Shown: in pieces, positions 33,288-38,669 of the stretch
Position numbering within the stretch: the first letter of the stretch is position 1
Layout: each line of letters begins with the position of its first letter
NCBI RefSeq assembly: GCF_005771435.1
Contig: NZ_VANI01000015.1
Location: 62,001-126,000, forward strand
DNA: 64,000 bases
Direction of reading: 5' to 3'
Source: Microbulbifer harenosus
GTDB taxonomy: Bacteria; Pseudomonadota; Gammaproteobacteria; Pseudomonadales; Cellvibrionaceae
Program-made: the position numbers and the translations under genes
The notes under the pieces: model-generated
Database searches by the model: none
The model's input: only the letters and a program-made list of their open reading frames with translations
Told to the model about the DNA's origin: nothing

Positions 33288-33323
33288 GCTCGCAACCTGG
33301 CACCACGATCTTGAGGAACTGTG

Positions 33324-33656
33324 ATGACCCCGGTGCAATTGTTCAAATGTCTGGCGGACGAGACCCGTCTGCGGCTGGTACTGCTGATGCAAGCGGAGGG
33401 GGAGCTGTGCGTGTGCGAACTGATGGCGGCGCTGGGAGAATCCCAGCCGAAAATCTCCCGGCATCTGGCGCAACTGCGCAACTGCGGCCTGCTGCAGGAC
33501 ACCCGTCGCGGCCAGTGGGTTTACTACAACATTCACCCGTCGCTGCCGGGCTGGGCGAGCAGCGTAATTGATAGCGCGACCAATGCCGAAGCCGGTCGCT
33601 TATCGGCACTGCGGAGCAGCCTCAAGGCCATGGCCGATCGCCCCGTTTGTTGCTGA
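33324..33656 (+). CDS. arsR: ArsR-family arsenic-responsive repressor
   Basis: A 110-residue winged-helix repressor. The ATG at 33324 is chosen over an adjacent GTG at 33321 because GAGGA lies six bases upstream. The metal-binding box ELCVCEL has Cys29 and Cys31, as in arsenic-sensing ArsR; the C-terminal CC pair (109-110) could offer a third thiol. The DNA-recognition helix is SQPKISRHLAQL. It should repress the operon at the palindrome inside its promoter and release with arsenite or antimonite. First gene of arsRC-acr3-arsH. Confidence 0.93.
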   Translation: MTPVQLFKCLADETRLRLVLLMQAEGELCVCELMAALGESQPKISRHLAQLRNCGLLQDTRRGQWVYYNIHPSLPGWASSVIDSATNAEAGRLSALRSSLKAMADRPVCC

Positions 33657-33678
33657 ACAATCCCAAGGAAATGAATCA

Positions 33679-34152
33679 ATGAACATTCTGTATATCTGTA
33701 CCCACAATCGCTGCCGCAGCATTCTGAGCGAAGCGATCACCAATCACCTCGCGCAGGGGCGCATCCAGGCCTGCAGTGCCGGCAGCCAGCCCAGTGGCGA
33801 AGTGCACCCACTGTCGATCCGCTATCTCAGGGAGAAAGGCATAGATACCGCGGGGCTCGAGAGCAAATCCTGGGATGCCTTCGAACAGAACCAGCCGGAT
33901 GTGGTGGTCACCGTGTGTGACAGCGCCGCCAATGAAAGCTGCCCGGTGTGGTTTGGCGATACCCTCAAGGTGCACTGGGGGCTGCCGGACCCCTCGAAAC
34001 TCGAGGGCAGTGAAGAGGAAATCCGCGAGGCGTTCTACCGTGTGATGGAAACCATCGAGCACCGCGTGCAGGGTCTGTTGTCCCTGCAGGAGAAGAACCT
34101 GCCGCGCGAAGAGTTGCTGAATGCGCTTGTCAGCATTGCAGAGGTCAACTGA
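33679..34152 (+). CDS. arsC: Arsenate reductase, low-molecular-weight phosphatase type
   Basis: A 157-residue arsenate reductase of the LMW-PTP fold (thioredoxin-coupled class). The nucleophile loop is ICTHNRCRS (Cys7-X5-Arg13). Two further cysteines, Cys80 and Cys88, lie in [13 protein letters not shown] as in the S. aureus pI258 enzyme. It converts arsenate to arsenite, to be expelled by the next gene. Start ATG 33679 is preceded by AAGGAA eight bases upstream; the longer in-frame reading enters arsR and is not credible. Confidence 0.93.
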
Positions 34153-34154
34153 TC

Positions 34155-35174
34155 GTGGGGCTGTTTGAACGGTATCTTTCGGTCTGGGTGGCGCTGTGTA
34201 TCGTCGCGGGCGTTTTGCTCGGCACCCAATTTCCCGCACTCTTCCACTGGTTCGCCGCGCTGGAAGTGGCCCGCGTAAATATTCCGGTAGCGATTTTCAT
34301 CTGGTTGATGATCTACCCGATGATGGTGCAGGTGGACTTCAGCTCCATTCGCGATATCGGTAAAAAACCCAAAGGGCTGCTGCTCACGCTGGTGATGAAC
34401 TGGCTGATCAAACCCTTCACCATGGCGGCCCTGGGTTGGTTGTTTTTCCGGGTGATTTTCGCCGACCTGGTGGACCCGCAGACGGCAACGGAATACATCG
34501 CCGGTATGATCCTGCTCGGCGTGGCGCCCTGTACCGCGATGGTGTTTGTGTGGAGCCAGCTGACCCGCGGCGATGCCAATTACACTCTGGTGCAGGTGTC
34601 GGTGAACGACGTCATCATGATTTTTGCCTTCGCCCCCCTGGCCGCATTTCTGCTTGGGGTCAGCGATGTGACCGTGCCCTGGGATACGCTGTTGTTATCG
34701 GTCGTGCTGTATGTGGTGATCCCTCTGATTGCCGGCATCCTGACCCGCCGTGCACTGGATTCTCGAGCGGATCACTCGCGTCTGAACCATTTCCTCGAAA
34801 CCGTAAAACCGATTTCCATTGCCGGCCTGCTGGCGACCGTGGTGCTGCTGTTCGGTTTCCAGGCGGAGACCATTCTCTCCCAACCGCTGGCCATTGTGCT
34901 GATCGCGATTCCACTGCTGATCCAGACCTACGGGATTTTTGCGATCTCCTACGGCGCGGCACGGGCCATGAAACTACCGCACAATATCGCCGCGCCGGGC
35001 TGCATGATTGCCACCTCCAATTTTTTCGAGCTGGCGGTGGCCGTGGCCATCTCCCTGTTCGGCCTCAATTCCGGTGCCGCACTGGCAACGGTGGTGGGGG
35101 TGCTGGTGGAAGTGCCGGTTATGTTGAGCCTGGTGGCCTTTGCCAATCGAACCCGCCACTACTTTGAGGAGTGA
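34155..35174 (+). CDS. ACR3-family arsenite efflux transporter
   Basis: A 339-residue arsenite permease of the BASS/ACR3 class with about ten transmembrane helices. The family signature [18 protein letters not shown] near residue 115 carries the essential cysteine. The GTG start lies two bases after the arsC stop. It extrudes arsenite driven by proton motive force. Operon neighbours ArsR, ArsC and ArsH support the assignment. It is unrelated to ArsB. Confidence 0.95.
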
Positions 35175-35177
35175 GTT

Positions 35178-35894
35178 GTGTCCCTGAACGATATGCCGAA
35201 CATTGACGCCGAGTGCCTGCAGCCGATCGACGAGGCGAAGCTGTTTTCTGCTGAGCGCTCACCGGCGCCCGTGAAAATCCTGTTGCTATACGGCTCACTG
35301 CGGTCGCGCTCCTTCAGCCGCCTGGCCACGGAAGAGGCCGCGCGCATTCTGGAATTTTTTGGTGCGGAAACCCGCACCTTCAATCCCTCCGGATTGCCGT
35401 TGCCAGACGATGCGGAGGAAGACCATCCGAAGGTTCAGGAGCTGCGCGCGCTGGCACAGTGGTGCGATGGCATGGTGTGGTGCAGCCCGGAGCGCCACGG
35501 CGCCATGACCGGCATTATGAAAGCGCAGATCGACTGGATCCCGCTGGCGATGCAGAGTATCCGTCCCACCCAGGGCAAGACCCTGGCAGTGATGCAGGTC
35601 AGTGGTGGTTCGCAATCGTTCAACGCCGTAAACCAGATGCGGGTGTTGGGACGCTGGATGCGGATGGTCACCATTCCCAACCAGTCATCTATTCCCAAAG
35701 CGTGGTTGGAGTTTGACGACAACGACCGTATGAAGCCGTCATCCCTGTACGATCGCGTGGTGGATGTGATGGAAGAGCTGGTGAAGTTCACCCTGTTGCT
35801 GCGGGATCGTTCGGACTATCTGGTAGACCGTTACTCCGAGCGCAAGGAAAGTGCCGAGGAATTCCGCAAGCGGATAGACCAGCGTTCGATGTGA
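35178..35894 (+). CDS. arsH: ArsH NADPH-dependent FMN reductase
   Basis: A 238-residue flavoprotein starting at GTG 35178. The FMN-binding loop is [15 protein letters not shown] near residues 36-50; the [22 protein letters not shown] segment near 103-124 and [23 protein letters not shown] near 140-162 are ArsH signatures. ArsH oxidises organoarsenicals or trivalent antimony. It is the last gene of the ars operon and its stop is only three bases from the stop of the convergent radical SAM gene. Confidence 0.93.
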
Positions 35895-35897
35895 ACC

Positions 35898-36986
35898 CTA
35901 GAACAGACTCTGCTGATCTCCGGCGCGCAGCGGCAGGGTAAAGCGGCTAGAGTCCAGCGCCAGTTTCCTTTCATTCAGGCCCAGCTTGCGGCAGTGCACC
36001 TTGAAGCGTTGCCGCAGCAGCTGGGCGAATACGCCGGTGCCGCGCTGGCGCTCGCCAAATTCGCTTTGGTTGTCTTTTCCCCCGCGGCTTTGCTGCACCA
36101 GACTCATGACATGCGCCGCTCGCTGCGGATAGTGCTCCGCCAGCCATTGCCTGAACAGCGGCGCCACTTCAAACGGCAGCCGCAGCAGAATGTAGGCGGC
36201 CTGGATGGCGCCGGCTTCGCTGGCGCTGGTCAAGATATTTTCCAGCTCCGAATCGTTGAGCGCCGGGATCATCGGCGCTGCCATCACTGCGGTGGGAATC
36301 CCTGCGCCGCTCAGTGCCTCGATGGTGCGCAGGCGCGCGGCCGGCCCCGCGGTGCGCGGTTCCAGTCGGCGTTTCAGGTCGTTATCCAGCGTGGTTACAC
36401 TGATGGCTACATGCACCAGGTTGTCCCGGGCCATCTCTGCCAGGATCGGCAGGTCGCGCACAATCAATTGGCTCTTGGTGACGATGGTCAGTGGATGGCG
36501 GTGGCGCTGCAGGGTTTCCAGTATCTGGCGGGTGATCTGCTTGTCTTTTTCCAGCGGCTGGTAGGGGTCGGTATTGGTGCCCATGGCGATGGGGCTGCAC
36601 TGGTAGCCCTTCTTGCGCAGCGCCTGTTCCAGTAGCTCTGCCGCATTGGGTTTGTAAAACAGCCGCGTCTCGAAATCGAGCCCCGGCGACAGGTCCATAT
36701 AGGCGTGGGCGGGACGGGCGTAGCAGTATACGCAACCATGCTCACAACCCCGGTACGCATTAATCGACTGGGTGAAAGGAATATCCGGGGAGCTGTTGGT
36801 GGCGATAATGGATTTCGCCTTTTCCTCTATGGCCACGGTTTCAATCCGCTCAAGCGGTTCCAGCTCCAGCGCCCAGCCATCGCTCTCGCGGCTGCTGACC
36901 TGGTCCACAAAGCGCCCGGCCAGATTGCTAACGGCGCCGCGGCCCTTGTGCAAGCGGGTGGGGTTGCTGGGGGAGTCGTTGGCCAC
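35898..36986 (-). CDS. PA0069-type radical SAM protein, LexA-regulated
   Basis: A 362-residue radical SAM enzyme with the iron-sulfur loop CEHGCVYCYARP (CxxxCxxC) at about residues 81-92, in the Rv2578c/PA0069 family that is related to spore photoproduct lyase. A GTG start is used. A close match to the LexA box lies 20-35 bp upstream of the start. In Pseudomonas aeruginosa, the orthologue PA0069 belongs to the SOS regulon, which fits. The substrate is unknown; a DNA-lesion or nucleotide-associated role is plausible. No photolyase-type neighbours are seen. Confidence 0.88.
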   Translation of the reverse strand: MANDSPSNPTRLHKGRGAVSNLAGRFVDQVSSRESDGWALELEPLERIETVAIEEKAKSIIATNSSPDIPFTQSINAYRGCEHGCVYCYARPAHAYMDLSPGLDFETRLFYKPNAAELLEQALRKKGYQCSPIAMGTNTDPYQPLEKDKQITRQILETLQRHRHPLTIVTKSQLIVRDLPILAEMARDNLVHVAISVTTLDNDLKRRLEPRTAGPAARLRTIEALSGAGIPTAVMAAPMIPALNDSELENILTSASEAGAIQAAYILLRLPFEVAPLFRQWLAEHYPQRAAHVMSLVQQSRGGKDNQSEFGERQRGTGVFAQLLRQRFKVHCRKLGLNERKLALDSSRFTLPLRAGDQQSLF

Positions 36987-37005: not shown

Positions 37006-37021
37006 CTGTATGTGCATACAG
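37006..37021. promoter_or_regulatory. LexA (SOS) box upstream of the radical SAM gene
   Basis: CTGTATGTGCATACAG, matching the consensus CTGT-N8-ACAG, flanked by TA on one side and T on the other. It abuts the -10 of the promoter of the minus-strand gene, with the start codon 20 bp away. Confidence 0.9.
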
Positions 37022-37048
37022 TTTATTGCCGCGTGCCGGACGGTGCAA
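37020..37048 (-). promoter_or_regulatory. Promoter of the radical SAM gene
   Basis: Minus strand: -35 TTGCAC (37043-37048), 17-bp spacer, -10 TAAACT (37020-37025). The -10 overlaps the LexA box by two bases, so LexA binding would block transcription. Confidence 0.65.
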
Positions 37049-37124: not shown

Positions 37125-38669
37125 ATGGATCTTCAGGCAGTGGCCGCGATTTACGGCTTTGCGGTCAAGGTGTTGCAGCTGTTTGCAATGCTGTTCGCCT
37201 TCGGGTTAGTGGTGCTGGTGCTCTACGTGGTGTACCTGTACCTGTCGGATGTGAGCCAGACCAAGCAGGCGATCCGGCGCAATTTCCCGGTGCTGGGGCG
37301 CTTTCGCTACCAGTTTGAACACCTGGGCGAGTTTTTTCGCCAGTACTTCTACGCGCTGGATCGCGAGGAGATGCCGTTCAACCGCGCCCAGCGCAACTGG
37401 GTTTACCGCGCGGCGAAAAATGTGGATTCCACCCTCGCGTTCGGCTCCACCCGGTCGCTCAATCAGCCCGGGGATATCGTCTTCCTTAATCACCCGTTTC
37501 CGACCCTGAGCAAGGACGCAGTACCGCCGCGGGAAGTGACTCTGGGGGAAGGCGTGGCACGCAAGCCCTACACTACAAGGTCGATTTTCAATATTTCCGG
37601 CATGAGCTTTGGTGCTCTGTCGGTGCCCGCGGTGACGGCGCTGTCGAAGGGGGCAGCCAAGGCCGGCATCTGGATGAACACGGGGGAAGGGGGCCTTTCC
37701 TCGCATCATCTGGCCGGAGGTTGCGACATCGTGTTCCAGATCGGCACTGCCAAATACGGGGTGCGGGATGCGGAGGGCAACCTGTCGGACGACAAACTGC
37801 GAGAGGTGGCGGCCCACGAGCAGGTGAAAATGTTCGAGTTGAAACTGTCCCAGGGCGCCAAACCCGGCAAGGGCGGCATCCTGCCCGGTATCAAGGTCAC
37901 GCCGGAGATTGCCCATGTGCGTGGTATTCCCGTTGGCATGGATTCCATCAGCCCCAATGGCCATCCGGAAATCCGCGACGTGGATGGGTTGCTGGATATG
38001 ATCAATCATATCCGCGACGTCACCGGCAAACCGGTCGGCTTCAAGTGCGTTATCGGCGTCAGCGACTGGCTGCACGATTTGTGTGCGGCTATCCAGCAGC
38101 GCGGTATCGAATCCGCGCCGGATTTCATCAATATCGACAGCGCCGATGGCGGCAGCGGTGCCGCCCCCCAGAGTCTGATGGATTACATGGGCCTGCCGCT
38201 GAGTCGCAGCCTGCCGCTGGTGGTGGATTTGCTCGAACAGTACGGGCTGCGCGAGCGGGTGAAGGTTATCTGTGCCGGCAAGCTGCTCACCCCTTCCATG
38301 GTCGCCTGGGCGCTGGCGATGGGGGCGGATTTCGTAAACTGCGGGCGCGGTTTTATGTTCGCTCTCGGCTGCATCCAGGCAATGCAGTGCAACAAAAATA
38401 CCTGCCCTACCGGCGTCACCACCCACAACCCGGATCTGCAGCAGGGGCTGGATCCGATGGACAAAGCGGAGCGCGTGTATCACTACGCGCGCAATATGGA
38501 ATACGAGGTCGGCACCATTGCCCATTCCTGCGGCGTGCCGGAACCGCGCCTGCTGCGCCGCGCCCACGTGGAGGTGATCAACGAGCGCGGCGTGCCCGTG
38601 CCGCTGAACGATCTGGTACCCGAGATAAAACCCAAATCCGTGATCGCCAGCGACCGCAGTATGAATTGA
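37125..38669 (+). CDS. FMN-binding glutamate synthase-like protein
   Basis: A 514-residue protein with one or two N-terminal hydrophobic segments (VLQLFAMLFAFGLVVLVLYVVYLY, residues 18-40) followed by a glutamate synthase-type TIM barrel (ISGMSFGALSVPAVTALSKGA near 160). The iron-sulfur cysteine motif is CIQAMQCNKNTCP near residue 424, which is the [3Fe-4S] cluster of GltB. It lacks the amidotransferase domain and the small subunit. Such stand-alone proteins are of unknown role, possibly using another amino donor or acceptor. The neighbour is a cation antiporter 28 bp downstream. Confidence 0.85.
   Translation: MDLQAVAAIYGFAVKVLQLFAMLFAFGLVVLVLYVVYLYLSDVSQTKQAIRRNFPVLGRFRYQFEHLGEFFRQYFYALDREEMPFNRAQRNWVYRAAKNVDSTLAFGSTRSLNQPGDIVFLNHPFPTLSKDAVPPREVTLGEGVARKPYTTRSIFNISGMSFGALSVPAVTALSKGAAKAGIWMNTGEGGLSSHHLAGGCDIVFQIGTAKYGVRDAEGNLSDDKLREVAAHEQVKMFELKLSQGAKPGKGGILPGIKVTPEIAHVRGIPVGMDSISPNGHPEIRDVDGLLDMINHIRDVTGKPVGFKCVIGVSDWLHDLCAAIQQRGIESAPDFINIDSADGGSGAAPQSLMDYMGLPLSRSLPLVVDLLEQYGLRERVKVICAGKLLTPSMVAWALAMGADFVNCGRGFMFALGCIQAMQCNKNTCPTGVTTHNPDLQQGLDPMDKAERVYHYARNMEYEVGTIAHSCGVPEPRLLRRAHVEVINERGVPVPLNDLVPEIKPKSVIASDRSMN

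Follow-up and report, generated by a model that had tools for sequence, protein, structure and literature searches.

LexA regulons include many repair and tolerance genes whose chemistry is known. For splB-like radical SAM genes, control by the SOS system has already been published in several phyla, as far as the accessible portions of the papers concerned go. LexA control of splB was predicted in Alpha- and Betaproteobacteria and, in the accessible text of that study, was not observed in Gammaproteobacteria (PMC3323433). SplB or a radical SAM protein is named among the SOS genes of Bacteroidetes, Gram-positives, and Balneolaeota in the available passages of two further papers (PMC8565304, PMC7739468), and extracts of others assign one radical SAM gene to the Streptomyces venezuelae LexA regulon (PMC9380542) and link SplB-like proteins to SOS operons (PMC3765255). 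For Pseudomonas aeruginosa, the available passages give a regulon of about 15 genes or make use of it without naming PA0069 (PMC8407119, PMC13114513, PMC12796719). In the excerpt of another paper, PA0069 belongs to a strain name for a chromosomal tag (PMC7485682). One microarray list mentions PA0069 in a passage that also names PA0669 and PA0670. In the literature searched, most subscription journals being outside its scope, no text naming both PA0069 and LexA was found, and the passages retrieved from it assign no reaction to the PA0069 family. The PA0069 gene is said to have been placed in the P. aeruginosa LexA regulon by Cirz et al. in 2006. The locus described here adds to this picture an order-wide footprint of the predicted control, an apparently missing cysteine, and an alphaproteobacterial RNase HII neighbour.

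The locus lies in a 64-kb stretch of DNA, hereafter the window, which is part of a 4.67-Mb Microbulbifer assembly. Its relevant features are the following.

35898..36986 (stop included), minus strand: PA0069-family radical SAM gene, 362 aa, GTG start (NF033668, PF04055)
37006..37021, no strand assigned: LexA (SOS) box CTGTATGTGCATACAG, a predicted operator according to matrix score, consensus match, and orthologue conservation
37020..37025, minus strand: -10-like hexamer TAAACT, with two bases common to the box; TA[ATG]ACT is kept in relatives
37043..37048, minus strand: -35-like hexamer TTGCAC, 17 nt from the -10-like hexamer
37125..38669, plus strand: divergent glutamate-synthase-like gene (PF01645), not considered a target of the box

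The outer pattern CTGT-N8-ACAG occurs a single time within the window, and because 0.71 occurrences are expected by chance, these bases alone are little proof; for this reason, the site was scored with a matrix built from boxes at the lexA promoters of 27 other genomes. The sequence-only reading had called the box at 37006-37021 near-perfect, and it is indeed the best LexA-type site of the window, with a matrix score of 20.35 versus 12.66 for the second site. It is also the only match to CTGTATATATATACAG with at most three mismatches, against 0.00 expected. The minus-strand promoter TTGCAC-N17-TAAACT that had been proposed at the box reads as described, the last two bases of TAAACT (37025-37020) being the first two of the box on that strand. 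The distance from the box to the GTG at 36986 is 19 nt, where 20 bp had been given earlier, and the box does stand just before the radical SAM start. A scan with the sigma-70 consensus gave no match for this TTGCAC/TAAACT pair, the hexamers being weak. Among the Microbulbifer loci, TA[ATG]ACT is found at the -10 position in 36/36, and 35/36 have TTG 17 or 18 nt away from it (17 nt in 10 loci, 18 nt in 25), with the exact TTGCAC in 18 of the 36. A start of the type M/V/L-A-N-D/E between the box and the GRG motif is shared by 24/36 of these loci, which makes the GTG start at 36986 credible.

The same palindrome, lying over the radical SAM promoter, is common to the organism's own lexA gene. One LexA was found in the genome (253.4 bits against TIGR00498), with the box CTGTATAAAAATACAG 16 nt upstream of its gene. 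A genome scan for places with at most three mismatches from the symmetrical consensus listed 14, two of them overlapping, hence 13 distinct places, versus four for a reversed control pattern. Nine of these 13 stand beside lexA, imuA, ruvC, polB, a yebG-like gene, two integron integrases, a DUF5131-TcmP pair, and the radical SAM gene, and this company makes the motif very probably the SOS operator of this Microbulbifer. The ruvC box overlaps the start of the ruvC open frame, and the yebG-like gene is a weak match (23.4 bits for a cut-off of 161). recA was not seen beside any of the 13 places.

Within the genus, the radical SAM gene is present in 36/37 genomes, the exception (G006) being 80% complete; the best named relatives among the matches listed (L061-L064) are Microbulbifer, at 75-87% identity. 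The box precedes the gene in 36/36 aligned Microbulbifer orthologues, own locus included, 35 of them ending in ACAG and one in CCAG, and is also present in a further same-genus genome (G531). In this alignment, the bases at -4 (T), -3 (A), and -1 (A) are invariant, as are CTGTA and CAG, while the centre of the box varies. In an even sample of the order, 56/195 genomes carry the gene over the family cut-off. Outside the genus, 51 genomes of the order exceed it and 50 were scanned (G527 was left out, its match lying at a contig edge), a box being counted when at least 7/8 outer bases and at least 11/16 bases overall agreed. By this measure, 45/50 orthologues have a box (41/46 plus 4/4), compared with 2/928 background windows. 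Among the five misses, two have all outer bases and 10/16 overall, two have 6/8 outer bases and 12/16 overall, and the remaining one has nothing convincing upstream. The box is thus conserved upstream of orthologues in the genus and the order, and it becomes patchy beyond. As a separate observation, no match to the NF033668 gene was obtained in the four listed genomes of other genera in the same family (G455, G482, G507, G588).

LexA of Alphaproteobacteria recognises a different sequence, GTTC-N7-GTTC. This motif occurs no more than 250 nt upstream in 52/57 alphaproteobacterial orthologues, which were assigned by record titles among the best 80 of 579 loci by similarity and which, because they are related to each other, do not count as 52 independent events; in background windows, it occurs in 11/1998. 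In the same 57 loci drawn from the best 80 of 579, the gamma box was found in none, and the control patterns gave 2/57 for a spacer of 6, 0/57 for a spacer of 8, and 3/57 for reversed half-sites. The site has changed along with the repressor, a switch that would be difficult to account for had LexA control of the gene not been selected, and selection seems to keep this control of the PA0069-type gene, as judged from the upstream sequences. LexA control had been proposed from the box in the window, and the search upstream of orthologues finds boxes kept in relatives, so that the proposal is strongly supported at the level of sequence comparison. The splB genes of PMC3323433, as far as they are described in the accessible text, are probably orthologous to these alphaproteobacterial loci. 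Both cases concern an SplB-like radical SAM gene with predicted LexA control across different LexA motifs, whereas here the trait is order-wide in a gammaproteobacterial order.

Elsewhere, the predicted control is less regular. The exact box was found in 15/133 other loci, a mixed set of Gammaproteobacteria (including Betaproteobacteria in the GTDB sense) and a small number of others, among them an Acidobacteria MAG, with at least six loci of the same order; some contig-edge matches and all below-cut-off matches were left out of the class sample. A comparison with lexA promoters, made on the 30 lexA loci that scored best among 80 genomes, gave a clear lexA box in 27/30, and 13 of these 27 also have a box at the radical SAM gene. 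Boxes at both genes occur in 5/5 of these best-scoring genomes inside the order and in 8/22 outside it. On this evidence, predicted control is a core trait in the order and in the sampled Alphaproteobacteria and patchy elsewhere. No clear candidate for a shared alternative motif emerged upstream of the 118 box-less loci once the coding GRG motif was excluded, two of them carrying the alpha motif. CTG-N10-CAG is present in 17 of the 118 against 6.3 expected (control pattern, 7 against 5.3), and from this excess, some looser boxes exist. In some gammaproteobacterial genomes (G084:C55, G420:C14, G370:C89), the PA0069-type gene appears fragmented and interrupted by stop codons, which looks like decay.

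The regulatory site itself could be read in two other ways. The palindrome might be a chance match or the site of another repressor, and the outer pattern, expected 0.71 times per window, would by itself allow it. Such an origin is scarcely credible when the matrix score, the conservation, and the motif change in Alphaproteobacteria are considered together, and a chance match was rejected as no site in 200 simulated windows reached 20.35, the largest score being 19.0. The box might instead serve the glutamate-synthase-like gene on the opposite strand (37125-38669) and stand close to the radical SAM gene by coincidence, since both genes share the upstream region in which it lies and the ATG of the divergent gene is 103 nt away. 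This second reading is very improbable. Indeed, it is the radical SAM promoter that the box overlaps, and the box is kept in the 16/33 Microbulbifer loci where the EGGxS-type signature of the divergent gene is not found (it is found upstream in 17/33). Outside the genus, where the flanks span 1.0-1.5 kb, this signature appears in 0/15 loci, 14 of which have the box. The divergent gene was therefore rejected as the target, the box staying with the radical SAM gene when the signature is not found.

On the other side of the gene, the alphaproteobacterial loci share a neighbour. In 44/57 of them (among the best 80 of 579), an RNase HII signature occurs on the same strand no more than 2.5 kb downstream, as it does in 1/173 other loci, a comparison that is unfair because most of the others have just 1.0-1.5 kb of downstream sequence. 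With equal lengths of at most 900 nt downstream, the signature is found in 36/56 alphaproteobacterial loci (again from the best 80 of 579) versus 0/166 others. Three of the downstream proteins were confirmed as RNase HII by Pfam, and the gap between the two genes is 10-45 nt in three of six alphaproteobacterial loci viewed. The pair may form an operon in Alphaproteobacteria, or it may merely reflect old synteny. RNase HII follows the radical SAM gene in L077, L088, L131, and others, and some loci have CcrM- and MutY-like signatures further on. In the window itself, the radical SAM gene is flanked by the end of an arsenic-resistance-like cluster (33321-35894) made of SBF/ACR3-type, FMN-reductase (ArsH-like), ArsR-like, and arsC-like genes, the ArsR-like, arsC-like, and Ars names having been given by eye.

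The encoded protein had been assigned to a PA0069-type radical SAM family, and this assignment holds, as it scores 504.7 bits against NF033668 (NCBIfam, hypothetical equivalog) for a cut-off of 360, with residues 14-362 aligned on profile positions 1-348. No tested feature of the Microbulbifer protein differs from this family; the second-best family, Rv2578c (NF038135), gives 232.8 bits, below its cut-off of 430. An AlphaFold model built with 127 sequences has a mean pLDDT of 93.9 and a pTM of 0.92. The kinship to spore photoproduct lyase suggested by the sequence-only reading is borne out by this model, whose predicted fold is nearest to the lyase: six of its seven best PDB matches are spore photoproduct lyases, with TM values of 0.56-0.61 over about 300 columns and 13-14% identity. 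The RiPP maturase SkfB ranks fifth, and NifB and lipoyl synthase are among further matches. Sequence profiles do not carry the kinship as far. A profile search of the PDB did not list spore photoproduct lyase, hhalign against it gave a probability of 13.5, the lyase models TIGR04070 and TIGR03886 are not among the four families matched at E <= 0.001, and, in the reverse direction, the lyase scores 12.2 bits against NF033668, far from the cut-off of 360. With the lyase (TIGR04070; PDB 4fhc) as the nearest solved fold, the enzyme shares the CxxxCxxC radical SAM motif, and an aromatic residue follows the third cysteine, Y or F in 127/127 family members and Tyr98 in the lyase. It is thus lyase-like in fold and cluster motif, yet not a member of the spore photoproduct lyase family, whose models it does not match and whose Cys140 is not conserved in the PA0069 family.

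The cysteines deserve closer attention. The cluster ligands C81, C85, and C88 are the sole invariant cysteines in 127 aligned members, and among the query's columns no other cysteine exceeds 81/127, these counts covering the columns aligned with the query's residues plus the invariant list. The lyase has an Asp 29 residues ahead of the V of VTK, and its C140 stands three residues before this Asp. The enzyme keeps the Asp-to-VTK spacing, which puts T137 at the place of C140, an equivalence that is a hand count of spacing and not a structural superposition. At the T137 column, Cys occurs in 0/127 sequences, the residues found being T, A, I, V, S, G, and M. A counterpart of the hydrogen-donor cysteine of the lyase (Cys140/141) was therefore not found at the position deduced from spacing, and, no invariant cysteine existing beyond the three cluster ligands, this donor seems to be missing in the PA0069 family. 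If the spacing alignment holds, the radical must be quenched by another route than in the lyase.

These features bear on what the enzyme may do. It could be a true spore photoproduct lyase that reverses 5-thyminyl-5,6-dihydrothymine in DNA with the assistance of a cysteine, SOS control adding direct reversal to the response. The nearest solved structures and the three invariant cluster cysteines speak for it, and the accessible part of PMC3323433 reads the alpha- and betaproteobacterial splB genes in this way. It is nonetheless improbable, and it was rejected on the family models, unmatched in either direction, and on the cysteine pattern, which offers neither a fourth invariant cysteine nor, by the hand-counted spacing, any Cys in place of C140. 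Somewhat less improbable, although still unlikely, is that LexA control is real and the substrate is an RNA, a protein, or a cofactor relevant in the damage response. Indeed, radical SAM folds serve many substrates, as the matches to SkfB, NifB, and lipoyl synthase recall, and the substrate is not settled by a fold shared at 14% identity. However, a DNA-repair enzyme accounts for nearly all of the best structure matches, and SOS control under two LexA motifs, together with the alphaproteobacterial RNase HII neighbour, points to nucleic acid.

The reading that we consider likely is that the box is a working LexA operator and that the gene encodes an SOS-induced radical SAM enzyme of lyase fold, acting most likely on damaged DNA or a repair intermediate without a cysteine donor. 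Computed results are the box and its conservation, its replacement by the alpha motif in Alphaproteobacteria, the family assignment, and the predicted fold. From the position of the box, LexA would bind it in undamaged cells and mask the radical SAM promoter around the -10 and the start site. After DNA damage, RecA filaments would trigger the self-cleavage of LexA and the gene would be switched on, presumably together with the SOS set that carries similar boxes (lexA, imuA, ruvC, polB). Its product would be a radical SAM enzyme with the fold of spore photoproduct lyase, working most likely on damaged DNA or on a nucleic-acid repair intermediate by SAM radical chemistry and dispensing with the cysteine hydrogen donor of the lyase. 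With no lyase-type donor, the lesion or the way of ending the reaction would probably be different. A DNA-damage role, with DNA as substrate and repair as outcome, is suggested by regulation and predicted fold together. The gene itself is very probably a real SOS gene of the ordinary kind.

Since the gene is retained under two LexA motifs, selection seems to keep it in the SOS response, and control kept in relatives and under another LexA motif would mark the enzyme as a genuine component of the DNA-damage response. Should it prove to reverse a lesion directly, common Gram-negative bacteria would have a direct-repair activity that is new and needs no light. A bolder and more tentative proposal, doubtful as it stands, is that the PA0069 family is a core proteobacterial SOS enzyme that repairs a hitherto unassigned DNA lesion by radical SAM chemistry, without the lyase cysteine, and works with RNase HII in Alphaproteobacteria. 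Such a partnership, if true, would tie the enzyme to ribonucleotide-containing or otherwise modified damage sites.

Some of the other box-bearing genes of this genome merit mention. The DUF5131 (PF07505)-TcmP (TIGR04474) pair at L249:2009-3999 has CTGTACATATATACAG, which ranks among the genome's two best LexA-type boxes. Among TcmP loci over the family cut-off, a box was found within the available sequence in 2/18, own locus included, so SOS control of this module is not general. Upstream of the pair lies a tRNA-like sequence, recognised by eye. Both integron integrases match TIGR02249 and have a LexA-type box close upstream, one at L242:1019-2017 (406.9 bits; box at L242:2025, 7 nt upstream) and the other at L259:509-1486 (364.5 bits; box at L259:1501, 14 nt upstream).
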